A stretch of 32,637 bases of DNA from Gemmatimonadota bacterium (GTDB lineage Bacteria > Gemmatimonadota > Gemmatimonadetes > Gemmatimonadales > Gemmatimonadaceae), in the NCBI GenBank assembly GCA_003171215.1, contig PMYN01000023.1, positions 1 through 32,637 of the forward strand. The letters are read 5' to 3'. Shown one piece after another: positions 1,928 through 14,910 of this stretch (positions are counted from its first letter, which is position 1; every line of letters begins with the position of its first letter). A program made the position numbers and the translations under genes. The notes under the pieces are model-generated. The model was not told the DNA's origin and made no database searches. It saw only the letters and a program-made list of their open reading frames with translations.

Positions 1928-3547
1928 TCATCGCTTCACGAACTTCGCTTCCATCAGCATCCACACGTTCGGATCGAGTGCCACATCGCGCGGGGCGCGG
2001 TCCGCCGGAATTTCAAAGCGCTGGGTCGTCCGGGTCATTTCAATCTTTTCGATCTGCACGGGGGCGCCCGCGCTGTCCGCGGTCACGCCGATCTCCATCG
2101 GCATGCGGTACGGCTGTCCGGGCTGTGTCTGTGCGAGATCGACGATGATCTTCTTCGCGTTCGCATCGTAGCTCCACCCGCCGTCGATCACCGGCGCGTC
2201 CACGCGTGTGAGCCACTGGTCGAAGAACCACTTCAGATCCTGGCCCGAGGTCTCCTCCATCGCGTGGCGCAGATCGTCGGTCGTCGCGCTGCCGTCGCGA
2301 TAGCGCTTGTAGTAGGTCTGGATTCCCTTCCAGAAGTTGTCCGTGCCGACCTGGCCGCGGAGCACGTGGAGGATCCAGCCGCCCTTCGCGTACTGCACCT
2401 GCGTGAGATCGGGGCCGGTTCCCTTCGCATTCTGGTGCGCCACCGCCGTCTTCTGCTGGCGTTCCGCGCGGAACGCCCCGATGCGTCCGCGCTTCAACGC
2501 ATCCACGAACGCTTCCCGGCCGCTGAAATGCTCGGTGAACAGATTCGCGAAGTACGTCGCGAAGCCTTCGCTGAGCCAGACGTCGTCCCACTCGTCCTCG
2601 GTCACCGCGTCACCGAACCACTGATGCGCGATTTCGTGCGCGACGACGCCCGAACTCTGGCGGTCGACGGTGTTCTCGCCGTAGAAGATCGCGCTCGCAT
2701 GCTCCATTCCGCCGCCGCCCCCGCCGATCGCGACGTTCGCGAGCTTCTCGTAGCTGTACGGCCCCACGTTCTCACTGAAGAACTCGAGCGCCTGGCGACC
2801 CGGTTCGTCGAAGGCGGCGAATTTGCCGGCATCCTGATGCGCGACCCACGATGTCAGCTCGACGCCCTTCACCATTCCGGCGTGGTGCACGGCGAACTGT
2901 TCGACCGCGATGTTGTACAGCCATACCGCCGTCGGAACCGACTGCTTCCAGTGCGTCATCTTGCGGCCGTCGCCGAGCAGCGTCTCCTCCTGCAGGAGGC
3001 CATTCGACACGACCAGATACTTCTCCGGTGCAGTGACGATGAACTCGGCGGTCGCCTTGTCCGATGGATGGTCGATGGTCGGGAGCCAGAGATGGGCCTT
3101 GTCCGGCCAGTTCCTCGAGGAGAAGAACCGCTCCTGGTAACGGTTCTTGCCGATCGCGAGCCCGCCCGACGCGACGCCGTGATAGCGGATCGTGAATCTC
3201 CGCAGCTCGCCTGCCGTCGTCGGACGGCCGAGCGTGATGTTCAGGCGATCGCCGGCATGTGCATAGCGCAGGGCGCTGTTGTCCGATTCGACCGCGGTGA
3301 CGGTCATCCCCTTGCCGTTCGATGCGGTCGCGAGATCGAGGAAGAAGGCGCCGAGGCCATCTCGCGTGAAGCGGATGGTGACGTTCGTCTCGCCGGCGAT
3401 TTCGTCGGTCGAGTCGTTGAGCGCCACCGCGAAGCTGTAATGCTGGACATCGACGCCGGCCTGTCTCTCATAGTGCTTCTGCTGCGCGGAGAGCGACGCG
3501 CCGAGCAGCGTGACGGCCAGGGCACTCTGCAACAGCCTGCGCATCAT
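1928..3547 (-). CDS. Exported M1 family metallopeptidase (first gene of tandem pair)
   Basis: Zinc metallopeptidase of 539 aa, a clear paralog of the downstream gene along its full length. The start at 3547 has a strong Shine-Dalgarno (GGGAGG, about 7 nt upstream) and opens a signal peptide (MMRRLLQSALAVTLLGASLSAQ). A second ATG follows at 3544. Zinc ligands are HEIAH at about 304-308 and Glu at about 327 (WLSEGFATYF), with the standard 18-residue gap. The GAMEN-like motif reads GGMEHAS after a run of six Gly. It lacks the long Gly/Ala/Arg insert that the paralog carries before HEIAH. It is divergent from the ADOP permease pair. The 159-nt gap holds an operator-like palindrome (3672-3691) that could also affect this gene. 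Peptidase class is secure; substrate is unknown. Confidence 0.9.
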   Translation of the reverse strand: MMRRLLQSALAVTLLGASLSAQQKHYERQAGVDVQHYSFAVALNDSTDEIAGETNVTIRFTRDGLGAFFLDLATASNGKGMTVTAVESDNSALRYAHAGDRLNITLGRPTTAGELRRFTIRYHGVASGGLAIGKNRYQERFFSSRNWPDKAHLWLPTIDHPSDKATAEFIVTAPEKYLVVSNGLLQEETLLGDGRKMTHWKQSVPTAVWLYNIAVEQFAVHHAGMVKGVELTSWVAHQDAGKFAAFDEPGRQALEFFSENVGPYSYEKLANVAIGGGGGGMEHASAIFYGENTVDRQSSGVVAHEIAHQWFGDAVTEDEWDDVWLSEGFATYFANLFTEHFSGREAFVDALKRGRIGAFRAERQQKTAVAHQNAKGTGPDLTQVQYAKGGWILHVLRGQVGTDNFWKGIQTYYKRYRDGSATTDDLRHAMEETSGQDLKWFFDQWLTRVDAPVIDGGWSYDANAKKIIVDLAQTQPGQPYRMPMEIGVTADSAGAPVQIEKIEMTRTTQRFEIPADRAPRDVALDPNVWMLMEAKFVKR

Positions 3548-3645: not shown

Positions 3646-3691
3646 TTGACGCGGCGCGCGCGGCAATGCACTGTATCGGCGTACCGATACA
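3646..3691 (+). promoter_or_regulatory. Promoter/operator before the ADOP permease pair; YtrA-type palindrome
   Basis: A -35-like TTGACG (3646-3651) is followed after 18 nt (counted from TTGAC) by CACTGTATCG-GCGTA-CCGATACACCA. The inner palindrome TGTATCGG-CGTA-CCGATACA spans 3672-3691 and ends 15 nt before the GTG start at 3707. The same arrangement with the same spacing occurs before the gntR gene at 10462. The -10 element probably lies within the palindrome, so a bound repressor would block RNA polymerase. Operator assignment is inferred from the shared motif and the location of the GntR gene. Confidence 0.75.
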
Positions 3692-3706
3692 CCACCCGAG
3701 GCCAAC

Positions 3707-6166
3707 GTGAGCACGATCAGAGAACGCGGCAGGGAGTTGGTGCTGGCGGCGCGCGATTTCGGTCGCGCCCTTCCGGTCGCCGTGCGATCGATGCGGCGGA
3801 ATCCCGGCTTCTTCCTGATCGCCGTGAGTTCGCTCGCCATCGCGCTCGGTCTCTCCACGACCGTGCTCGCGCACATCGATTCGCTCACGCATCCGTACGT
3901 GCCCGTGCGCGACGTGGATCGCCTCTATAGCGTCTGGATTCCCGGTGAGGGCGCGGTCTCGCAGCCGACCGGGGATGAGATCGCGCAGCTCGTTTCAGCG
4001 GTGCCGTCGTTCGAGGGCGTCGCGATGGGCGCCGAGTTGAGCGGAACGCTCTCGGTGGCCGACAAGGGCGGCATGGGCGGAGGCGTGGCCGCGCAGCCCG
4101 ATTACTTCAAGGTCCTCGGCGTCACTCCCCGGCTCGGGCGATTGTTCAGTCCCGCCGAGACCGATGAGTCGGGGGTCGCAGTCGTGAGCGATGCCACCTG
4201 GAGACTGTTCTTCAACAATAGAAGTGAGATCGGCGACGCCGTCATCACGTTCGAGGAACGGCCGTACGCCGTGGTCGGCGTGCTCCCCGAAGGTCTCGAT
4301 CAGATCGTGGGCGCGAACTTCTGGATTCCGCGCCCTCGTCACATGCCGCGATACACGTGGTTCATCGCGCGCCTCAAGCCCAGCGCCACCGAGGCGCAGG
4401 CGAAATCCGACCTCCATGTGATGACCAACCGGCTCATCTCGGAGTACGGGACGAAACGCCAGCCGTTCGTTGCGCGCTTTCGTTCGAAGAAACCCGACCC
4501 GCTCCGCCTTCGGGAGTATCACGGCGCGATGATCGGTGCGGCGGTGTGCATCCTGCTGATCGCCTGCGCGAACGTCGCCGCGCTGATGCTGGCGCGCGGC
4601 GTGGTGAAGCGCCGCGATCAAGCGCTGCGGCTTTCGCTCGGAGCCACGCGAGTGAATCTGCTCACGACCGTTGCCGCGGAAGTCTCCGTACTCGCGATCG
4701 CCGGCGGCGTCGCGGGCATCCTGATCGCGAACTGGACCATGCATCTGCTCGCGGGAGCCGTACCGATAGAATCGGGATGGATCGAGGGCAGCGGCATCGA
4801 GCCGCACTGGAACTGGCGCGTGTTCGCCGAATCGTTCGCCGCGATGATCACCGCCGTCGCGATCGCGGCCAGCCTGCCCGCGTGGTACTCGAGCCGCATC
4901 GCGCCCAATGAACCGCTGAAGGAAAGTTCCGGCACGACGACCGGGCGCGCGGGTTCGCGATTCAAGGTTCTCGTGGTGGCCGAGATCGCGCTCTCGATGG
5001 TGCTGCTGATCGGATCGAGTTTGATCGCGAAGGCAACACGGAATGTCTCGCAGTTCGATTTCGGATACGATGCCAGGCCACTGCTCGTGGGCTTCGCGAA
5101 CGTGAGCATCAAGGCCGACAGCCTCGCAGCGAGCGTGGCCGCGAACAACGCGGCGGACAGACGTCCGTGGGTGACAGCCACGCAGTTCAACACCGCGGTC
5201 GAACGGGTGAGGGCAATCAAGGGCGTGGTCTCCGCCGCAGCGGTCACGTACGGAATACCGGAAAAGAATCTGGTGATTTCCGATCAAGTGGCGAGCCGCC
5301 ATGCGAGCCCGCTGAACCTCCGGCGCTACATGAACGTGGGCGACGATTTCATGAAGACACTCGGCGTACGGATTGTGGAGGGACGAGATTTCGTCGCCGG
5401 CGATCGCCCGGGACGCGGCGCCGTGATTCTCGACCAACTCGCCGCCAAGCAGCTGTTCCCCGGAGGCGGTGCCGTCGGACAGCTCGTGAAGCTCGGCGAC
5501 GCGATGTCGATGCAACCGTGGGTACCGGTGGTCGGCATTGCGCACACGGCGCGGCTCACCTTTCCTGTTGAGGCGGAGCTCGAGCCCGAGCCGGCCGTCT
5601 ACGTGTCGCTTCCGGTCGGCTCGAGCTTCAGCTCGAGTATCGTGATTCGTCCGAGCGGCGGAGCGGTTGGCACCGCGCTCGCGGTGCAGCGCGTGCTCAA
5701 GGATCAGTTCCCGCCCAAGACCTACGTGTGGACGAATCGCTGGCTCGAGAACTACGACGAGATGCTCGGCGCGCGCGAGTTCACGTCGAAGATATTCGTC
5801 GGGCTCGGCCTGGCCTCGCTCTTGCTCGCGGCGGCCGGACTGTTCAGCGTGCTCTCGTATTCCGTCGGCCAGCGCATGCGCGAGTTCGCGGTACGCGTCG
5901 CGCTCGGCGCGGATCGCAAGGACGTCATGCGCCTCGTGATGCGCGACGGCGTGGTGATGGCGCTCGGCGGCACCGCCATCGGCGCGATGTTCGGGATGTG
6001 GGCGGGATTCTTGCTCAACAGTTTCCTGTGGGGCGTGTACCCACTCGACGCGCAGGCGCTGGTGGTTGCCGAGGCGATTCTGTTCGCGGTGACGATGGGA
6101 AGTTGTATCGCGCCGGCGCTGCGCGCGACGCGCGCGGATCCGCTCGAGATTCTGCGGGCGACATAG
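3707..6166 (+). CDS. ADOP/MacB-FtsX-type permease, first of tandem pair
   Basis: Large inner-membrane permease of 819 aa with the duplicated FtsX/MacB-core layout of the ADOP (Acidobacterial duplicated orphan permease) family. One membrane segment near 35-57 (after RRNPGFF) is followed by a MacB-like periplasmic core, then three or four segments from about 275 to 440. A second periplasmic core and three C-terminal segments (about 695-810) follow, with the FtsX-like motif REFAVRVALGADRKDV. The start is GTG at 3707 with GAGG about 5 nt upstream. No ATPase is adjacent, as usual for the family. Related FtsX/MacB permeases act in mechanotransmission or export, but substrate here is unknown. The next gene starts directly after its stop codon. 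Confidence 0.88.
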   Translation: MSTIRERGRELVLAARDFGRALPVAVRSMRRNPGFFLIAVSSLAIALGLSTTVLAHIDSLTHPYVPVRDVDRLYSVWIPGEGAVSQPTGDEIAQLVSAVPSFEGVAMGAELSGTLSVADKGGMGGGVAAQPDYFKVLGVTPRLGRLFSPAETDESGVAVVSDATWRLFFNNRSEIGDAVITFEERPYAVVGVLPEGLDQIVGANFWIPRPRHMPRYTWFIARLKPSATEAQAKSDLHVMTNRLISEYGTKRQPFVARFRSKKPDPLRLREYHGAMIGAAVCILLIACANVAALMLARGVVKRRDQALRLSLGATRVNLLTTVAAEVSVLAIAGGVAGILIANWTMHLLAGAVPIESGWIEGSGIEPHWNWRVFAESFAAMITAVAIAASLPAWYSSRIAPNEPLKESSGTTTGRAGSRFKVLVVAEIALSMVLLIGSSLIAKATRNVSQFDFGYDARPLLVGFANVSIKADSLAASVAANNAADRRPWVTATQFNTAVERVRAIKGVVSAAAVTYGIPEKNLVISDQVASRHASPLNLRRYMNVGDDFMKTLGVRIVEGRDFVAGDRPGRGAVILDQLAAKQLFPGGGAVGQLVKLGDAMSMQPWVPVVGIAHTARLTFPVEAELEPEPAVYVSLPVGSSFSSSIVIRPSGGAVGTALAVQRVLKDQFPPKTYVWTNRWLENYDEMLGAREFTSKIFVGLGLASLLLAAAGLFSVLSYSVGQRMREFAVRVALGADRKDVMRLVMRDGVVMALGGTAIGAMFGMWAGFLLNSFLWGVYPLDAQALVVAEAILFAVTMGSCIAPALRATRADPLEILRAT

Positions 6167-8632
6167 ATGAACTCGCGGCTCACGCGTGCTTGGGCGGTCG
6201 CAAGGCGGGAATTCCTCGCAATGCCCACGACGGCGCGAAGCGCATCGCGCTCGCTGCGCCGCGCTCCCGGCTTCGTAGCGATCGCGACGCTCTCGCTGGG
6301 CGCCGCGCTTGGCCTCTCGACGTCGGTGTTCGCGCTCATCGACTCGATGCGGCATCCCCAGTCGCCGTTCGCCAAGGTGGATCAGCTTTACGGAATCCTG
6401 CTCTCCGTGGGCACGACGAATCCGAGCCGCCGCGACGTAGAGGAGGCGCTCGCCGGCCTGCGCGGCGTGACCGCTCGCTCGAGCTGGCGATACGAATACG
6501 GACCGATCGAGTTCAACGACGGCGGCGAACGGCGCGGCGTCGCCTACACGCGCCCGGGATTCTTCGAAGTGCTCGGCGCGCGTCCGCGACTCGGTCGGCT
6601 CTGGAACGCCGACGACGTGGCGCACGGCGACGTCGCGGTCGTGACGGATGGGCTGTGGCGCCGGCGGTTCAACAATCGCGCGCGAGTCGATGGCGCGACG
6701 CTCGCGGTCGGCGACCATCAGTACAAGATCATCGGCGTGATGCCCGCGAGGACGGAATTCCAGCATGGCTTCGGCCAGGACATCTGGATCCCCGATCCCG
6801 CGCCGGATACCACCGGAGCGGGAATGCCCGTCATCAGGATCGCGGGCGGCGCGGCCGACACGGTGCTCGTGCAAAAGCAGTTGAACGAACTGTGCCGGCG
6901 ATGGACGAAGCAGTATCTCACGCCGCTGCAGCGTCCGTATGCGTCGCGCCTGTTCTCACTGAGCCCTGATCCGCTCGCGCTTCAGGACTACCATCGCGCG
7001 ATGATCGGCGCGGCGATCTGCGTGCTGTTGATCGCGTGCGCGAACGTCGCGGCGCTGATGCTCGCCCGCGGCATGGTGCGCACGCGCGACTACGCGCTGC
7101 GTCTCGCGCTCGGGGCGGGCCGCGCCGAAATCGCGCGGGAAGTGATCGTCGAGGTCGCCGTGCTCGCGCTCGTCGGCTGCATCGCCGGGGCGCTCATCGC
7201 CTCATGGGCCGTGGGGCTCATCACGCGCGCTACGCCCGAGGCCCTGCATTGGCAGGGGTTCGTGCAGCCGCAGTGGAGCGTGCGCGTCTTTGCGACCAGC
7301 GCGCTCGCCGTGCTCGTGTCCATCGCGATCGCCGGTGGATTCCCGGCATGGCACGCGAGCCGCACGGATCCGATGGGACCACTCAAGGAGAGCGGCGGCG
7401 GCACCACCGGCAAGGCGGGAACGCGATTCCGCTGGCTCGTGATGGCGGAACTGGCCCTCTCGATGACGCTCGTGATGGGAGCGAGCCTGATGGTGAAGTC
7501 GGCCACGCGCATGGCCGCATACGATTTCGGCTATGACGCGCGCATCCTGATCTCGGCCGATGCCTCTTTCCCGCAGCGCTTCTTCTACAACGGAAACAGG
7601 CGCGAGTTCTACAAGGACACCTTGGCAGACAGCAGCAAGGCCCGCTTGAACACCGACCTCCTCGCGCGCCTCAGGGCAATTCCCGGCGTCCGGAGCATCG
7701 CGAAGTTCACCGGCTGTTCGCTGAAGAACGGCGTCGTGACGTCGGATCGCACGATCGAGGGCGGAGCCGCGGGCTACGTCCCGAACCACTGCCACGTCAC
7801 GAGCGCCGGTCTTTTCTCGACGCTGGGAATCCCCATGGCGGATGGCCGAGATTTCATCGAGGGCGACGACGCGACCGGTGCGATCATCCTGAGCGAGCGA
7901 ACGGCGCGGCAGCTGTATCCTCACGAGCGCGCCGTGGGCCGCACCATGAAACTCGGCGACCTCGCGTCGGACAAGCCGTGGCTTCCGATCATCGGCGTCG
8001 TGCGCGATCGCGAACTGTATTTCAATTCGTTCCCCGAAGCCGGGCCTGATACGTCGTCACAACTCTACGCGATGCTGGCCAGCAGCAAGGCCGACCTCGG
8101 CAGCGTCATCATTCATCCGGAGCCGGGCGCGCGAGGCGTCGAACTCGCCGTGTGGAAGACGCTGCGCGTGATGCTGCCGCCGCACAGCATCTGGCACGTG
8201 GCGCCGTGGGTGCAGAGTTACCAGGAGGGCGTCGTCGCCGAAGAGTTCGTTTCACTCCTGTTCGTGCTGCTGGGAGTAGCGTCGCTCGTGCTGGGCGCCG
8301 CGGGCTTGTTCAGCGTGATCTCATACATCGCCGGCCAGCGGAACCGGGAGTTCGCGGTGCGCATCGCCCTTGGCGCGACCAGGCAGAACGTGCTCACCCT
8401 CGTGATGAAGGAAGCGCTCGTCATGGCGCTCGGCGGCACGGCGGTCGGCGCCGGGCTCGGGATGTGGGCGGGGTTCCTGCTCTGGAACAAGATGTGGGGA
8501 GTGTATCCGGTGGATGCACAGGCGCTGATCGCCGGTGAGACGACGCTGCTGCTCGTCACCATGCTGGCGTGCCTCGCCCCGGCCCTTCGGGCCACGAAGG
8601 CCAATCCGGTCGACGTCCTCCGCGCAGCCTAG
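6167..8632 (+). CDS. ADOP/MacB-FtsX-type permease, second of tandem pair
   Basis: Permease of 821 aa and a paralog of the preceding gene. Shared landmarks are RR-x-PGF before the first membrane segment, MIGAAICVLLIACANVAAL, PLKESGGGTTGKAG at the domain junction, and the C-terminal REFAVRIALGATRQNV. The ATG at 6167 directly abuts the TAG of the upstream gene, so translation is probably coupled and both depend on the promoter at 3646-3691. It has the same two-core arrangement with no nucleotide-binding domain. The pair may form a heterodimer, which is inference. The stop is followed by a long inverted repeat (8685-8908). Confidence 0.87.
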   Translation: MNSRLTRAWAVARREFLAMPTTARSASRSLRRAPGFVAIATLSLGAALGLSTSVFALIDSMRHPQSPFAKVDQLYGILLSVGTTNPSRRDVEEALAGLRGVTARSSWRYEYGPIEFNDGGERRGVAYTRPGFFEVLGARPRLGRLWNADDVAHGDVAVVTDGLWRRRFNNRARVDGATLAVGDHQYKIIGVMPARTEFQHGFGQDIWIPDPAPDTTGAGMPVIRIAGGAADTVLVQKQLNELCRRWTKQYLTPLQRPYASRLFSLSPDPLALQDYHRAMIGAAICVLLIACANVAALMLARGMVRTRDYALRLALGAGRAEIAREVIVEVAVLALVGCIAGALIASWAVGLITRATPEALHWQGFVQPQWSVRVFATSALAVLVSIAIAGGFPAWHASRTDPMGPLKESGGGTTGKAGTRFRWLVMAELALSMTLVMGASLMVKSATRMAAYDFGYDARILISADASFPQRFFYNGNRREFYKDTLADSSKARLNTDLLARLRAIPGVRSIAKFTGCSLKNGVVTSDRTIEGGAAGYVPNHCHVTSAGLFSTLGIPMADGRDFIEGDDATGAIILSERTARQLYPHERAVGRTMKLGDLASDKPWLPIIGVVRDRELYFNSFPEAGPDTSSQLYAMLASSKADLGSVIIHPEPGARGVELAVWKTLRVMLPPHSIWHVAPWVQSYQEGVVAEEFVSLLFVLLGVASLVLGAAGLFSVISYIAGQRNREFAVRIALGATRQNVLTLVMKEALVMALGGTAVGAGLGMWAGFLLWNKMWGVYPVDAQALIAGETTLLLVTMLACLAPALRATKANPVDVLRAA

Positions 8633-8684
8633 AGGCCATCTCGCAAACCCGGCGCTATTGAGTGGAAGAGTGGGGAGAGGCGAA

Positions 8685-8908
8685 ATGAATGCGGGATGCG
8701 GAATTTCGACCCGATGCGGGATACGCGGCTGGAGGGCGGGAATCGGGAAAGGGCTGATGCGGAATGCGAGAGGGATGCCGAATACGGATGCCGCCCGGGT
8801 CGTGCCCGCATCGCGGGTCCCTTCCGCATCTTGCATCCTGCCTTTCCCGATTCCCGCCCTCCAACCCCGCATCCTGCATCGGAGCAAACTTCCGCATCCC
8901 GCATCCAT
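8685..8908. repeat. Long imperfect inverted repeat built of about 7-nt units, between convergent genes
   Basis: This fills most of the 332-nt gap between the converging permease and Nramp genes. The outer arms ATGAATGCGGGATGCGGA (8685-8702) and its near complement (8891-8908, one mismatch) frame a perfect 22-bp match, 8731-8752 with 8841-8862. The left arm is a run of degenerate units such as GCGGGAT, GCGGAAT, GATGCGG and GATACGC. The transcript could form a hairpin of about 100 bp and terminate transcription from both sides. No gene is seen in this gap. Confidence 0.85.
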
Positions 8909-8964
8909 CTCGCCCCTCTGCACTCCCTCACCACACCCTTCAGCATTGGTTTGTGAGACGTGCT

Positions 8965-10224
8965 CTAAACCACAAACATCGCGATCCCCGCCGCGAACAT
9001 CGCCACCGTCGTCGCGCCGACCACCACGCGCCCCAGCAACGAGCTCGGCTGGCCGTTCATCAGCTTGCGATCCGTCGCGGCGTGCAGGATGCCGATCAAC
9101 AGGAACGGCGCCAGCAGACCATTGATCACGGCGGTCCAGTAGAGCGCCTTCACCGCGCCGATTCCCGCGAAATCCATCGCCACACCGATCGCGATCGATA
9201 CGCCGATGACGGCGTAAAAGGCGTGCGCACGGCCGAACCGCTCGTCGATACCCTGCTTCCAATCGAACGTCTCGGCGAACGCATATGCGGCGGAACCGGC
9301 GAGAGTGGGAATGGCGAGCAGTCCGGTTCCAACGATTCCGATCGTATAGAGCAACATCGCTGATCGGCCGGCAAGCGGACGCAGCGCGGCGGCCACGTCC
9401 GCCGACGTCTCGAGGTGAGTCTGCCCATGGGCGTGCAGTGTGCTCGCCGTCGTCACGATGATGAAGAACATCGCGACGTTCGAGAAGAACGTACCCAACC
9501 CGATGTCGATCTTCCGGTCGCCGATTTGCGCGGCGGTCGCGCCCATCCGCGCCCTGAGTGTGAGCTGGCCGGCCGCTTTTTCCTCTTCGACTTCCTGCGA
9601 TGCCTGCCAGAAGAACAGGTATGGGCTGATCGTCGTTCCAAGAATCGCGACGAGCGTCGCCCAGCCCTCGCGGCTGTGCGGGAGCCGCGGCACGACGGTT
9701 GCGCGCAGCACGGCCCCCCAGTCGGGATGCACGTCGATGGCCGCTATCACATAGACGAGGAGAATCAGCGCCAGCCACTTGAGCGTATTGGCGATCACCG
9801 CGTACCGCAGCCGAATCGTCGCGACCGTGATCCCGATGCCGAACGCCAGCACCCAGACGAAGGCCCGCACACCGGTGAGCACGTGCGCCGCGTCCGCCAT
9901 GCCACCCAAGTCCGCGCCGACGTTGATCGTGTTGGCGATGAACAGCGCGCCGGCGGCCGTGGCGAGAAGCCATCGCGGATACTTCGTACGGAGCGCGCCG
10001 GTGAGCCCCTTTCCCGTGACCATCCCGATGCGCGCGCACATCGTCTGCACCGCCGCCATCAGCGGCCAGAGCAGCGGCGCGGTCCAGAGGAACTGCGTGC
10101 CGAACTGCGCGCCGGTGATGGAATACGTCGCGATCCCCGAAGGATCGTCGTCGGCGGCACCGGTGATGACGCCGGGGCCCAAGGCAGCCAGGACGCGACG
10201 GAGGGGGGACGGCTTGAGAACCAT
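8965..10224 (-). CDS. Nramp-family (SLC11-like) transporter with divergent metal-site motifs
   Basis: Inner-membrane protein of 419 aa with about 11 hydrophobic segments; N-terminal ALGPGVITGAADDDPSGIATYS is typical of Nramp homologs. In classical Mn/Fe importers the first unwound helix reads DPGN and helix 6 reads MPH. Here the matching stretches are DPSG (about 27-30) and GTTISPYLFFWQ (about 196-207). This places it in a divergent subgroup whose substrate cannot be inferred; Mg2+, another divalent ion or a non-metal solute are all possible. An EVEEEK stretch follows helix 6. It is transcribed alone, convergent to the ADOP pair and divergent from the gntR operon. The start at 10224 lacks an obvious Shine-Dalgarno but fits the family N-terminus. 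Confidence 0.85.
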   Translation of the reverse strand: MVLKPSPLRRVLAALGPGVITGAADDDPSGIATYSITGAQFGTQFLWTAPLLWPLMAAVQTMCARIGMVTGKGLTGALRTKYPRWLLATAAGALFIANTINVGADLGGMADAAHVLTGVRAFVWVLAFGIGITVATIRLRYAVIANTLKWLALILLVYVIAAIDVHPDWGAVLRATVVPRLPHSREGWATLVAILGTTISPYLFFWQASQEVEEEKAAGQLTLRARMGATAAQIGDRKIDIGLGTFFSNVAMFFIIVTTASTLHAHGQTHLETSADVAAALRPLAGRSAMLLYTIGIVGTGLLAIPTLAGSAAYAFAETFDWKQGIDERFGRAHAFYAVIGVSIAIGVAMDFAGIGAVKALYWTAVINGLLAPFLLIGILHAATDRKLMNGQPSSLLGRVVVGATTVAMFAAGIAMFVV

Positions 10225-10256
10225 GGAGCGGAGAGTAGCGCGTGGGAGGGTGTACG

Positions 10257-10396
10257 ACGAGTTAACTCGTTCTTGGTTGGTTGGTTAACCGAAGTTGAGT
10301 AATTCGCCCTGACATCGAGCCCCGCGACGCGCCTCGCAGTCCGGGCCAATTCTTTCACCTCAGTTAACCAACCAACTAGAAACCAGTTCACCCGCA
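10257..10396. repeat. Inverted repeat with GGTT-rich arms in a divergent intergenic region
   Basis: A perfect 14-bp palindrome ACGAGTTAACTCGT (10257-10270) leads into GTTGGTTGGTTAAC (10276-10289). Its exact complement is GTTAACCAACCAAC (10363-10376), and flanking bases pair imperfectly to about 10396. It is much richer in A/T than its surroundings. It lies between the starts of the Nramp gene and the gntR operon, so a terminator role is unlikely. It ends just before the gntR promoter. No gene is seen in 10225-10461. Confidence 0.75.
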
Positions 10397-10404
10397 GTTT
10401 CCTC

Positions 10405-10450
10405 TTGACTTTATCCTCCCACCTCATCACTGTATCGTGACACCGATACA
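10405..10450 (+). promoter_or_regulatory. Promoter/operator of the gntR-ABC operon; YtrA-type palindrome
   Basis: A -35-like TTGACT (10405-10410) and, 18 nt after TTGAC, CACTGTATCG-TGACA-CCGATACACCA. The palindrome TGTATCG-N6-CGATACA covers 10431-10450 and ends 11 nt before the gntR ATG. It matches the element at 3646-3691 at 21 of 26 positions across the CACTG...CACCA block, with equal spacing to TTGAC. Autoregulation by the first gene of the operon is the simplest reading. Confidence 0.78.
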
Positions 10451-10461
10451 CCAGGCGCCCA

Positions 10462-10842
10462 ATGTTCGAACGCATCGACCCCCGAAGTCCCACGCCCATC
10501 TACGCGCAGATCGCGGAGCGCGTGCGCGTGGCCGTCGCCGCCGGCGAACTCGCGAAGGGCGACAGCCTCCCCTCCGTGCGCGCGCTGGCGACCCGCTTGC
10601 GCGTGAACCCCGCGACCGTCGTGCAAGCCTATCGCGAGCTCGAACAGGAGAAACTCTTGGAAATGCGCCAGGGAGCGGGAACGTTCATCCTCGAAATGCC
10701 GGTGGAGTCGCGCGCCCGCGAGCGACAGGCCGCGGCGAAGCGGCTCGTCCGCGGTCTAATGGAAGAGGCCGCGCGGCTGGGCATCCAGAAGGACGACATC
10801 AAGAAGGCGCTCAACGGCGAACTCTACGAGGGCGGACGATGA
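10462..10842 (+). CDS. GntR-family repressor, YtrA subfamily
   Basis: Small regulator of 126 aa. Residues about 10-75 form the GntR winged helix (PIYAQIAERVRVAVAAGEL, then SLPSVRALATRLRVNPATVV and a wing at RQGAGTF). The C-terminal part is a short helical region of about 50 residues instead of a large ligand-binding domain, the hallmark of the YtrA subfamily. These usually sit first in an ABC transporter operon and repress it, as here. The likely binding site is the palindrome at 10431-10450, and by identity also 3672-3691. The stop overlaps the ATPase start (ATGA). Confidence 0.9.
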   Translation: MFERIDPRSPTPIYAQIAERVRVAVAAGELAKGDSLPSVRALATRLRVNPATVVQAYRELEQEKLLEMRQGAGTFILEMPVESRARERQAAAKRLVRGLMEEAARLGIQKDDIKKALNGELYEGGR

Positions 10843-11753
10843 GCGACGCCATCATTGTGCGAAACGTGACGTATCGCGCCGGCAAGGAGTTCGCGATCCG
10901 CGATCTCGCCATGACCGTGCCGACCGGATCCGTCTACGGATTTCTCGGACCGAACGGCTCCGGCAAGACGACCACGCTGCGCCTGCTGCTCGGCATGCTG
11001 CCCGTGGACGACGGCACCATCAACCTGCTCGGACACGATGTGCCCGCCGGCGTGCACAAGGCGCTCGCCAAGATCGGCTACGTGCCGGAGCGGCTGCATC
11101 TCTATCCGCAGCTCACCGTCGAGGAGACGCTGCGCTATCACGCGGCGTTCTACCCCGACTGGGACAACGCGCGTGCCGAGCAGCTGCGGCGCGGGTTTTC
11201 GCTGCGCGCCGAGCAGCATGTCGACCGTCTCTCGAAGGGCGAGAGCGGCAAGCTGATGATGCTGATCGCACTGGCGCACAATCCGGACTTGCTCGTGCTC
11301 GACGAGCCGACGGACGGTCTCGATCCGGTGGTGCGCCGTGACGTGCTCGCGGCCCTGCTCGAATACGTCTCGTCGCGAGGCGCGACGGTGCTCATCTCGA
11401 GTCACCTGATTCACGAGCAGGAGCGCATCTGCGACCACGTGGGCGTGATGGACGACGGGCGGCTGCTCGCCGAGATGCCGATGGCGGCGTTCCGCGGCGG
11501 CATCAAGCGGCTGCGCGTGTCCAGGGCCCCGCTGGATCGCGGCGACCTTCCCTTCACGCTTCTCTCGCGCGGCGTCTCCGCGGGGCGCGAGGAAGAGTGG
11601 GTGGTGCGCGGGTGGCAGCCTGCGATGAAGGAATACTTCGTGACGGCGGAGAGCGAGCTGCGCGAAGTGATCGATCTCGATCTCGAGGAGAGTTTCGTGG
11701 AGCTGCTGCGCTCGGCGCGTGTACCGGTCGTCGTTGCCGGGGAGGAGATCTGA
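10839..11753 (+). CDS. ABC transporter ATP-binding protein (YtrB/CcmA-like)
   Basis: Cytoplasmic ATPase of 304 aa that energises the next-encoded permease. Walker A GPNGSGKT is at 37-44. The signature motif is a variant, LSKGE at 131-135. Walker B LLVLDEP is at 151-157, followed by TDGLDP, and the switch His is at 189 in ISSHL. The C-terminal region after about 210 is an accessory domain seen in many drug- or lipid-export ATPases. The ATG at 10839 overlaps the gntR stop by 4 nt, and the stop overlaps the permease start (TGATG), so translation is coupled at both ends. Substrate is unknown. Confidence 0.92.
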   Translation: MSDAIIVRNVTYRAGKEFAIRDLAMTVPTGSVYGFLGPNGSGKTTTLRLLLGMLPVDDGTINLLGHDVPAGVHKALAKIGYVPERLHLYPQLTVEETLRYHAAFYPDWDNARAEQLRRGFSLRAEQHVDRLSKGESGKLMMLIALAHNPDLLVLDEPTDGLDPVVRRDVLAALLEYVSSRGATVLISSHLIHEQERICDHVGVMDDGRLLAEMPMAAFRGGIKRLRVSRAPLDRGDLPFTLLSRGVSAGREEEWVVRGWQPAMKEYFVTAESELREVIDLDLEESFVELLRSARVPVVVAGEEI

Positions 11754-12406
11754 TGTTCGGAGAAATGCTGTACACGCAATGGAAGTGGGCGCGCACCGAG
11801 CTGTTCCTGTACGTGCTCGCCGCATTCCTGATTCCGACGATCATGATTCGCATCGGGTTCTCGTATATCGATGCATATTCGATCCGGTCGGTACTCAATA
11901 TGGGAGCGTACGCGGGCATTTTCTTCTGCGCGCTCGCCATCGCCTGTGCGTTCGGGCTCGCCTGGCGGCCCTATATCAACGACGCGTCGCTCAAGCACGT
12001 CGGGCCGCTCTCGCTTCCGATCTCGTGGCCGAGATTCGTTCAGATGCGATTCCTGGCGGGAGTCGTGCTGCTGCTCGTGCCGACCGTCGCAGTCTGGATC
12101 GGCGGGGTGATCGCCACCGCATCGGCGCCCATTCCCCCGACGCTGCATACGTACCCGGGAGGGATCGCCATCCGCTTCTTTTTCGCGGCGTTGATCGCGT
12201 ACGCGGCGGGCTTTCTCCTGCAATACGCGGGCGGGAAGCACGCCGTGAGGATCGCGATCTTTCTCTTCCTTACCGTCGTCGGCGTCGAGCTCGCCGGCCA
12301 GTTGCTCGGATACGACAGCATCGTAGGAAGCACCTGGAACGCTCTCACGAGCTGGCCCGGTCCGTTCTCGATCTTCGGCGCGCGGTGGATGCTGATCGAT
12401 GTCTGA
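11753..12406 (+). CDS. ABC transporter permease, about six membrane segments
   Basis: Hydrophobic protein of 217 aa with about six segments, for example ELFLYVLAAFLIPTIMI, AYAGIFFCALAIACAFGLA, FLAGVVLLLVPTVAVWIGG and IAIFLFLTVVGVELAG. Size and position after an ATPase fit an ABC-2-like or YtrC-like half-transporter. No similarity to a named subfamily is obvious by eye. The ATG at 11753 overlaps the ATPase stop. The 3' end overlaps the next gene by 8 nt. It probably works with the ATPase as a dimeric complex. Confidence 0.82.
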   Translation: MFGEMLYTQWKWARTELFLYVLAAFLIPTIMIRIGFSYIDAYSIRSVLNMGAYAGIFFCALAIACAFGLAWRPYINDASLKHVGPLSLPISWPRFVQMRFLAGVVLLLVPTVAVWIGGVIATASAPIPPTLHTYPGGIAIRFFFAALIAYAAGFLLQYAGGKHAVRIAIFLFLTVVGVELAGQLLGYDSIVGSTWNALTSWPGPFSIFGARWMLIDV

Positions 12407-13544
12407 TCGCCTGAGTTCCCGGATGTTCGCACTCGGGTGCGTGGCCGTTTTGCTCGCGCTCGGTTCGACCGCCGCGCGCACGGCGGAGGCGCAATCCGCA
12501 TCGCAGATTGCGGGGCGCGTATTCTCGGCGATACACACCACCAAGGTCGTGAAGGATTCGATCGAGCTGTTCCACGCGAGTCACACTATCGACTTGCCGC
12601 CCGACTCCGCGACGGCGGGAGGGATCCGCCTGCGCTTCGACCGGAGCAATCTCGGCGCCGAGATGGAAGCGGCGATGAAAGCGGCGGCGGAGCGCGCCTG
12701 GATCGTCGCGGAATCGCAATTCGGGGAGGAGGCGCGAGCAACCGCGGGCTCGGAACCGATTCTCGTGAACCGGGTGCGGCGGCAGTTCGCGCCGCTCGTC
12801 TGGATCGAGTACCTGGAACTCCAGCTGCCCGAACGGAGTTCGCGCATCACGATGGTCCGCGTGCCGATGACCCAGCAGAAGCTCACGGACGCCGTGCTCG
12901 ACATCGCCGGGACTCTCGCGACGAGCCGCGTCCCGCACGACATGATCCGGTGGCTGGGCTTCTGGACGCCGACGCGTCCGATGAGCGAAGAGGAATGGCA
13001 GGATGCCTCCCTCGACCTCGCGACGTCGGTCTCGACGGTCACCAAGAGCTGCTACGCGGGCTCCCTGGAGGGCTGCGAATCGGCGCTGGGCCTGACCGAA
13101 GTGAAGGATCCGCTTCACGAGTGGTACTCGCCCGACGGCTGGCGCGTGCTCGTCAGCGAATGGAACCCGCCGAAAGCGGATTTCGAACTCGTCGCCGCGC
13201 ACGACGAGTGCGTCGTCAAGAAAGTGGCCGCCACCTGTGAACGGCTCGCCCGCACACGGGTGGTTCCGATTCCCCTCAACATGTCCACCCGCGCGACGCT
13301 GTACGCGCTCTCGATCGAACGCGGCGGCCCTGCCGCCTTCTCGAAGATCCTGCAGGGGACGGGAACGCCGCTGCAGATTCTCGCGAATGCTTCCGGCGCA
13401 TCGCCGAATGATCTCGTGAGCGCCTGGAGATCACGCGTGCTCCGCGCCGCGCCACGTTCGGACGCGGCGACGCCGGGCCATGTCGCGATCGTGCTGGCCT
13501 GGACGCTGTTGTTCGGCGTGGCTGCTTCGCGGAGGCGGCCGTGA
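12399..13544 (+). CDS. Exported protein of unknown function; degenerate gluzincin-like, C-terminal anchor
   Basis: 381 aa with a signal peptide (about 1-32, cleavage near AEAQS) and a C-terminal hydrophobic segment followed by SRRRP (about 360-381). The bulk should therefore be periplasmic and anchored at its C-terminus. No known domain is certain. Residues about 160-230 have the rhythm of a zinc-peptidase core: LDIAGTLATS sits where HExxH would be, then RWLGFW where WLxEG would be. The region 300-345 (AAFSKILQG...NASGASPNDLVSAW) resembles the C-terminal helices of M1/MA-clan peptidases. No zinc ligands remain, so a binding or structural role is more likely than catalysis. A C-x7-C motif (Cys218, Cys226) recurs in the next gene. 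It overlaps the permease gene by 8 nt. Confidence 0.75.
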   Translation: MSDRLSSRMFALGCVAVLLALGSTAARTAEAQSASQIAGRVFSAIHTTKVVKDSIELFHASHTIDLPPDSATAGGIRLRFDRSNLGAEMEAAMKAAAERAWIVAESQFGEEARATAGSEPILVNRVRRQFAPLVWIEYLELQLPERSSRITMVRVPMTQQKLTDAVLDIAGTLATSRVPHDMIRWLGFWTPTRPMSEEEWQDASLDLATSVSTVTKSCYAGSLEGCESALGLTEVKDPLHEWYSPDGWRVLVSEWNPPKADFELVAAHDECVVKKVAATCERLARTRVVPIPLNMSTRATLYALSIERGGPAAFSKILQGTGTPLQILANASGASPNDLVSAWRSRVLRAAPRSDAATPGHVAIVLAWTLLFGVAASRRRP

Positions 13545-14707
13545 AGATGACGTTCGGACGCTGGATCGCGGCGTGCGTGTTCGGAATCGCGCTCGTCGCG
13601 GTGACGTTGCTCCCACCCGGGCTCTCGGATGGAGACCCGTACTTCTTTTGGCGGCCGCCGTCGAGGAACACCGAGTTCGTGATGTCGAGACGCGCCCGGA
13701 TCAGGGCGCAGCACGGACAGAGTCTCTGGTACGCATATCAGTCCGCGCGCGACGTGGAGACCGCGATGAGAGTCTTCGGAGCCCAATCCGCCAAGAGCTC
13801 CGGGCCTCAGGATCCGGTCGTCTGGTTCGATTCGGACGTGCCGGCCTTGGCGCGCCTCCAAGTCAACAACGCCATCGCCGCCGAACGTGCCGCGCGCGGA
13901 GCGTGGCGCGGGCATGGAGCCGTCGGAGTCCTCGTGTTCACCGACACGGCGACGACTATAGGCGGCGTGCCGATGTCGTGGGGTACCTACGCGGGAAACA
14001 CAGTGATGACGCAGTTGATACCGCCGAGCAAGTCCACGGGTGATCGCTGCGTGACCGTGATCAAGCTTGGGCGCCATGCCGCACACGGCGAGGCGTTTCC
14101 AGACGGGCGCCTGCTCGACGGCTGCGCCTTCTACGACGCGTTCGGAGCGCCGGGTCCGGCCATAGCAGCATGGCTCGCGCAGGAGAACTTCCGCGTCGCG
14201 CGATCACTCTCGTTCGCGCCACCCGACATGGTGCGCAACCTGGTTCGGCCCACCGACTACGAGGCGATTTTCGACAACGCGAGCCTGGTGCGATGCGCCG
14301 GCGGCGATCTCGCCGCCTGTCCTTCCCTGATGCATCGAGATCAGTCAAGACCCATCTACTACTCCGACTGGTACGGCGGGCCGGATCGGAGCATTCCGCC
14401 CTCCGATGAATCATCGAGACGCTTCAATAGTCTGGGCGGGAGCTCGTACCTGGAGGCGCTCATGCGCGACCTTGGGCCGGGACGCTTCCAGCACATGTGG
14501 CAGTCGACGAAATCGCTCGAAGACGGCTATTTCGAAGCGACCGGTGAGCCGTTGGCCGCATGGCTGCATCGCCAAACGGTGATGTACGACGGCGCATACC
14601 ACATCGGCCCGCTCCCAACGCCGACCTCGGCGCTGCTGACGATGATCGCGGTGCTCGCGCTGGCGGCGGCTTCGGTGCGATGGGCGGTGCGGCCGTACGC
14701 TGCGTGA
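13541..14707 (+). CDS. Exported or membrane-anchored protein of unknown function, distant relative of the preceding gene
   Basis: 388 aa. An N-terminal hydrophobic segment (about 7-26) and a C-terminal one (about 363-383) suggest a mostly periplasmic protein anchored at both ends. The start is GTG at 13541, overlapping the upstream stop (GTGA) with GGAGG 5 nt upstream; ATG at 13547 is an alternative. Cys252-x7-Cys260 (CAGGDLAAC) matches CYAGSLEGC of the preceding protein. Residues about 301-345 (YLEALMRDLGPGRFQHMW...ATGEPLAAW) resemble the C-terminal helical part of M1/MA-clan peptidases, but no HExxH exists. It is last in the five-gene operon and is followed by an inverted repeat. Confidence 0.74.
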   Translation: MKMTFGRWIAACVFGIALVAVTLLPPGLSDGDPYFFWRPPSRNTEFVMSRRARIRAQHGQSLWYAYQSARDVETAMRVFGAQSAKSSGPQDPVVWFDSDVPALARLQVNNAIAAERAARGAWRGHGAVGVLVFTDTATTIGGVPMSWGTYAGNTVMTQLIPPSKSTGDRCVTVIKLGRHAAHGEAFPDGRLLDGCAFYDAFGAPGPAIAAWLAQENFRVARSLSFAPPDMVRNLVRPTDYEAIFDNASLVRCAGGDLAACPSLMHRDQSRPIYYSDWYGGPDRSIPPSDESSRRFNSLGGSSYLEALMRDLGPGRFQHMWQSTKSLEDGYFEATGEPLAAWLHRQTVMYDGAYHIGPLPTPTSALLTMIAVLALAAASVRWAVRPYAA

Positions 14708-14750
14708 AATCCAGCCGGGATTATCGAGTTGGAATGAGATAAGAGTGGCA

Positions 14751-14910
14751 AGATGGATGCGGGATACGGAATTTCGACCCGATGCAGAGTGCGGAAGAGG
14801 AATCCGGAAGGTGGGACAAGAGCAGCGTGGGGAGATCTCCCCTCTCACCCCTTATTTCCTCCACGCGCATTCCTCTTCCGCACCCTGCATCGGGCCGAAT
14901 CTCGCCACTC
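14751..14910. repeat. Long imperfect inverted repeat related to the one at 8685-8908
   Basis: The centre is the perfect 14-bp palindrome GGGGAGATCTCCCC (14829-14842). Farther out, 14778-14803 pairs with 14869-14894 at 25 of 26 positions. The left arm contains GGAATTTCGACCCGATGC (14768-14785), identical to 8700-8717, and runs in roughly 7-nt units (GCGGGAT, ACGGAAT, GATGCAG, AGTGCGG). It lies between the end of the ABC operon and the RND operon and could act as a terminator. No gene is seen in 14708-15040. Confidence 0.85.

Follow-up and report, generated by a model that had tools for sequence, protein, structure and literature searches.

A conserved YtrA-type promoter-operator shared by an ADOP-like permease pair and a gntR-ABC operon in a Gemmatimonadota genome

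The window analysed here is a stretch of 32,637 nucleotides from a Gemmatimonadota bacterium (assembly GCA_003171215.1, contig PMYN01000023.1), in which two large permease genes and an operon combining a GntR-family regulator with an ABC transporter lie on the same strand, separated by a transporter gene of opposite orientation. The principal features are as follows.

3646..3651, + strand: -35-like TTGACG of the permease promoter; TTGAC stands 21 nt before TGT in all ten ADOP-like promoters (10/10)
3669..3674, + strand: putative -10-like CACTGT of the permease promoter, 17 nt past the -35 and overlapped by the left operator arm
3672..3691, + strand: operator copy 1, TGTATCG-N6-CGATACA, 25.1 bits with a matrix from other genomes' gntR promoters
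3707..6166, + strand: ADOP-like permease 1, 819 aa, duplicated MacB_PCD and FtsX (Pfam), TIGR03434 over its full length
6167..8632, + strand: ADOP-like permease 2, 821 aa, TIGR03434 505 bits, start codon abutting the stop of permease 1
8965..10224, - strand: Nramp-family transporter between the two loci; kept in genome G014, not between the loci in genome G002
10405..10410, + strand: -35-like TTGACT of the gntR promoter
10428..10433, + strand: putative -10-like CACTGT of the gntR promoter
10431..10450, + strand: operator copy 2, TGTATCG-N6-CGATACA, 31.9 bits, the top-scoring site in the window
10462..10842, + strand: YtrA-type GntR regulator, 126 aa, PF00392, with short GntR regulators among its best solved-structure matches
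10839..11753, + strand: ABC ATPase, PF00005, overlapping gntR by ATGA
11753..12406, + strand: membrane protein, probable ABC transporter permease by position and hydrophobic sequence only, with no family match
12399..13544, + strand: exported protein of the gntR operon, conserved in G014 and G002
13541..14707, + strand: exported protein of the gntR operon, conserved in G014, its gene start also found at a contig end in G002

The palindrome TGTATCG-N6-CGATACA has two exact matches in the 4,138,602-base genome, both inside the window, and a scan of all these bases returned no copy with one mismatch; about 0.004 copies per genome would be expected by chance from base composition. The two copies belong to a 26-nt block, CACTGTATCG-N5-CCGATACACCA, in which the five central bases differ and the rest is identical. 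TTGAC starts at 3646 and 10405, in both cases 21 nt before TGT, and the palindromes end 15 nt before the GTG at 3707 (permease 1, with GAGG ahead of this start codon) and 11 nt before the ATG at 10462. Identity between the two loci is only 21% in the 100 nt of upstream flank and 22% in the spacer; the resemblance is thus limited to the promoter-operator and does not reflect a recent duplication. The initial annotation had described the palindromes at these positions, the wider block identical outside its centre, the fixed distance behind TTGAC and the placement 11-15 nt before start codons, all of which hold for both copies; the many unrelated copies that it had named as a refutation of its reading did not appear, the full-genome scan giving two exact sites. 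A relaxed promoter-operator pattern adds one copy, preceding an ADOP-like gene (G000:C33:360-403), which brings the pattern-level copies in this 4.1 Mb genome to three.

The -10 element is weak and a generic sigma-70 scan found no promoter; its assignment therefore rests on spacing and conservation, the distance from TTGAC to CACTGT at 3669..3674 being that of the gntR promoter and orthologues carrying TACTGT or CACTGT at this position. The left arm of the operator would lie over this presumed hexamer, the placing expected of a repressor.

In YtrA-subfamily regulators, which are about 120-130 aa long, the GntR winged-helix domain is followed by only a very short C-terminal region. The protein encoded at 10462 has 126 aa with PF00392 at 14-76, its best solved relatives are regulators of 113-134 aa, its gene is joined to that of an ABC ATPase by an ATGA overlap, and its promoter carries a long palindromic site of the ACTGTAT-N10-ATACAGT type; it has every YtrA feature that could be checked from sequence. 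Orthologues were found in 59 of 161 sampled genomes of the order (E up to 1e-30), and its named relatives come from Gemmatimonadota assemblies. An ACTGTAT-N10-ATACA(GT) site stands directly before the start codon in 21 of 21 aligned gntR loci (register set by eye in four, by automatic dyad search in the rest), with TTGAC nearly always 20-22 nt before TGT; the promoters of G031 and G037 deviate from this spacing. Because all 21 loci share it, we take TGTA-N12-TACA to be the regulator's own YtrA-type site. The arms covary, TGTATCG pairing with CGATACA and TGTATTA with TAATACA. Sites before gntR (L107-L149 and the window) tend to retain an extra central (T)ACA that permease sites mostly do not have, a difference that might correspond to different affinities.

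The two permeases align with the ADOP profile TIGR03434 over their full length, scoring 513.8 and 504.8 bits against a curated cut-off of 622.3. Both have the internal duplication of ADOPs, with two stretches each of MacB_PCD and FtsX, and, as in ADOPs, no ATPase gene lies directly adjacent, the nearest ABC ATPase belonging to the separate gntR operon. Since the cut-off is missed, we describe them as a sister branch of ADOP; the designation as ADOP permeases in the initial annotation thus needs to be softened to ADOP-like. Its remark that such genes often stand next to PadR regulators is true of canonical ADOPs of this genome, several of which have a TIGR03433 PadR just upstream, and does not extend to this branch: C152, the contig of the permease pair, gave no TIGR03433 hit. 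In a tree of 63 permeases, obtained by a rapid search with no bootstrapping, all operator-bearing permeases and their tandem partners form one 18-member branch (SH-aLRT 99; one member, L179, is long-branched), separate from the canonical, often PadR-linked ADOPs. Most ADOPs of the same genomes exceed the TIGR03434 cut-off, part of them with a TIGR03433 PadR just upstream, and none of the canonical ADOPs examined has a YtrA-type operator.

The prefix domain NF038403 occurs in several PadR-linked ADOPs and in branch members L095 and L097, from genomes that lack the regulator, and was absent from all operator-bearing permeases tested. It is not a strict marker, being missing as well from several canonical ADOPs that have no PadR. 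In the present genome, several canonical ADOPs (C84, C7, C50, C119, C20 and C151) follow a TIGR03433 PadR gene at a distance of a few hundred nt, and these PadR-adjacent ones mostly show an N-terminal prefix-like segment.

Conservation was assessed with a matrix trained on gntR promoters alone, with no permease site and with no sequence from this genome, G014 or G002. Within the window it ranked the gntR site first (31.9 bits) and the permease site, at 3670-3693, second (25.1 bits), the next and unrelated position reaching 6.6 bits; the maximum in 30 random sequences was 16.1 bits. G014 keeps the cluster ADOP1-ADOP2-Nramp-gntR-ABC, with operators ahead of ADOP1 and gntR, and in G002 ADOP2 lies directly upstream of gntR, each with a separate operator. 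Outside the cluster, the promoter-operator precedes ADOP-like genes in this genome (C33), G014 (C30), G002 (C61), G026, G046, G040 and G125, and operator-bearing branch members extend to other genera and families. Such conservation supports the initial annotation in assigning one common module to the permease pair and the gntR-ABC operon: the operator type recurs ahead of every aligned gntR orthologue, of the G014 orthologue of ADOP1, of ADOP2 in G002 and of branch permeases from other genera and families.

Across the 161 genomes the relaxed pattern yielded 49 distinct sites: 30 before gntR, eight before ADOP-like genes, three before a single type of small exported protein, two before CarboxypepD_reg outer-membrane proteins and six without dyad symmetry that appear chance-like, with about 12 hits for a reversed-pattern control. 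Lead permease genes carry the operator in nine of ten cases with the regulator and one of six without it (Fisher p = 0.008, a hand count uncorrected for relatedness). No operator was found at branch members in G022, G029, G036 and G038, all lacking a close regulator orthologue, nor at the G002 branch member on C139. The permease of G125 bears an operator in a genome with no close regulator orthologue and with YtrA paralogues up to 42% identical. What the sequences show is a shared, conserved and positionally fixed promoter-operator, associated both with the regulator and with a single branch of permeases.

On this sequence evidence the two loci, permease pair and gntR-ABC operon, very probably belong to a single regulon. 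The best model, to which we assign a probability of roughly 0.85, is an autoregulated YtrA-like repressor that would also silence the ADOP-like permeases. As a dimer, the protein encoded at 10462 would cover the -10/start region of both transcription units and keep them silent until released by a signal of envelope or antibiotic type; that the protein binds directly, that it represses and does not activate, and that an inducer acts on it are what we infer. The regulon here would comprise the gntR-ABC operon, the permease pair, the third ADOP-like gene (C33) and possibly an operon for HlyD, MacB and an outer-membrane factor on C70. The latter is preceded by a strong YtrA-type site (4529-4552, L099; 32.4/29.1 bits), as are the equivalent loci in G014 (C15) and G002 (C40), and possibly belongs to the regulon of the 10462 protein or to that of a second YtrA-type protein of this genome, encoded on C65, which is 40% identical and has a related yet different site of its own. 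As a correction to the initial annotation, the permease and gntR loci are chromosomal neighbours, which makes their co-regulation less surprising.

That another regulator, the C65 protein or else a PadR, acts on the permease promoter, with operators alike because the families involved would bind palindromes of a similar kind, is unlikely. In its favour, the same genomes encode YtrA paralogues with GTGTACTA-type sites, the related site of the C65 paralogue makes cross-regulation possible and G125 has the operator without a close orthologue. Against it, the arms of the two window sites are identical, whereas the site of the C65 paralogue differs (GTGTACTAGTATAACTAGAACAC); across genomes, operator presence mostly tracks the close orthologue, and no TIGR03433-type PadR lies beside the operator-bearing permeases. 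More doubtful still is a two-locus transporter, assembled through the shared operator, in which the gntR-operon ATPase (10839-11753) would also power the permeases. The best NCBIfam matches of this ATPase are of the PmtA/DrrA type, under their cut-offs, and with its own probable membrane partner it is not the obvious engine for MacB-like permeases. An obligate partnership is further disfavoured by many genomes with gntR and no branch permeases and several with the reverse, and the evidence supports no tie of the permeases to the ABC transporter other than co-regulation.

The palindrome overlaps the promoter and follows TTGAC at a fixed spacing, as a common promoter part or general element might, but the 4.1 Mb contain no more than two exact copies and three at pattern level, and the covariation of the arms also speaks against it, making this reading very improbable. 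Identical arms only 6.7 kb apart could also stem from the recent duplication of one promoter with a single functional copy; with flanks and spacer about 21% identical and each site separately conserved in G014 and G002, we give this almost no credence.

The autoregulated YtrA-like repressor favoured here has close counterparts. In Bacillus subtilis, YtrA is likewise a short GntR repressor encoded in an ABC-transporter operon (ytrGABCDEF), and it also represses one further membrane-protein operon, ywoBCD (PMC8060467, PMC12772383), as proposed here for the permease pair. Its site, AGTGTA-13-TACACT (PMC8060467), closely resembles the present one (TGTA-N13-TACA vs TGTA-N12-TACA), and its regulon contains the MacB/FtsX-like YtrF; unlike the duplicated ADOP-like permeases, which form a separate unit with no adjacent ATPase gene, YtrF shares an operon with the ATPase YtrE. 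YtrA-Sa of Sulfolobus acidocaldarius confines its repression to the operon that encodes it and a single membrane-protein locus elsewhere, through a motif that covers the transcription start much as the present operator overlaps the promoter, but it is archaeal, its motif core is 14 bp and its target is a putative membrane protein not described as ADOP-like (PMC6746942). PmtR of Staphylococcus aureus is a YtrA-type repressor of the pmtR-ABC operon with a site over the transcription start; it differs in having no described ADOP-like target and in its effectors, phenol-soluble modulins (PMC5080381). YtrA-type proteins are thought to offer little space for a ligand pocket (PMC5080381, PMC6746942). 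Our leading guess for the release signal, drawn from the B. subtilis and S. aureus systems, is an antibiotic or peptide that acts on the envelope. The canonical PadR-linked ADOPs (TIGR03434/TIGR03433) share with the window proteins two MacB_PCD and two FtsX stretches, a length of about 800 aa and full-length profile coverage, whereas the latter fall short of the cut-off, are without the NF038403 domain seen in several of the PadR-linked ones tested, and are accompanied by a YtrA-type operator and by no PadR gene.

A YtrA regulon made up of its own operon and one membrane-protein locus is thus of a known kind; the papers searched, an incomplete set, described none that extends to ADOP-like permeases, and a search on ADOP biology returned nothing relevant. 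To our knowledge, the ADOP permeases, numerous in this lineage, have no assigned function. The conserved operator gives one ADOP-like branch a named candidate regulator and a small regulon and, by analogy with YtrA, a candidate class of inducers in cell-envelope antibiotics and peptides, and the type of regulator distinguishes this branch from PadR-linked ADOPs.

Several minor features accompany these loci. An M1-family peptidase gene (1928-3547) is divergent from the permease pair, an arrangement seen again around the operator and permease in G002 (C61); no M1 gene was found beside the cluster in G014. Operator copy 1 may also regulate this peptidase. The small exported proteins with a YtrA-type operator (G026:C4:157944, G146:C6:110310 and G165:C14:39334) have (M/L)K(S/N)DLRNLV in common and gave one weak Pilin_GH match, under the cut-off. 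A dispersed imperfect inverted-repeat element with 108-nt arms (81% complementary) occurs at 8668-8925 and 14742-14899, the related copy beyond the gntR operon sharing a 43-nt direct repeat (88%). A 67-nt imperfect inverted repeat (73%) occupies 10258-10394, in the intergenic region from which Nramp and gntR diverge and immediately ahead of the gntR promoter. A portion of this repeat, GGTTAACCAACCAAC, also precedes gntR in G002, where the Nramp gene is missing.
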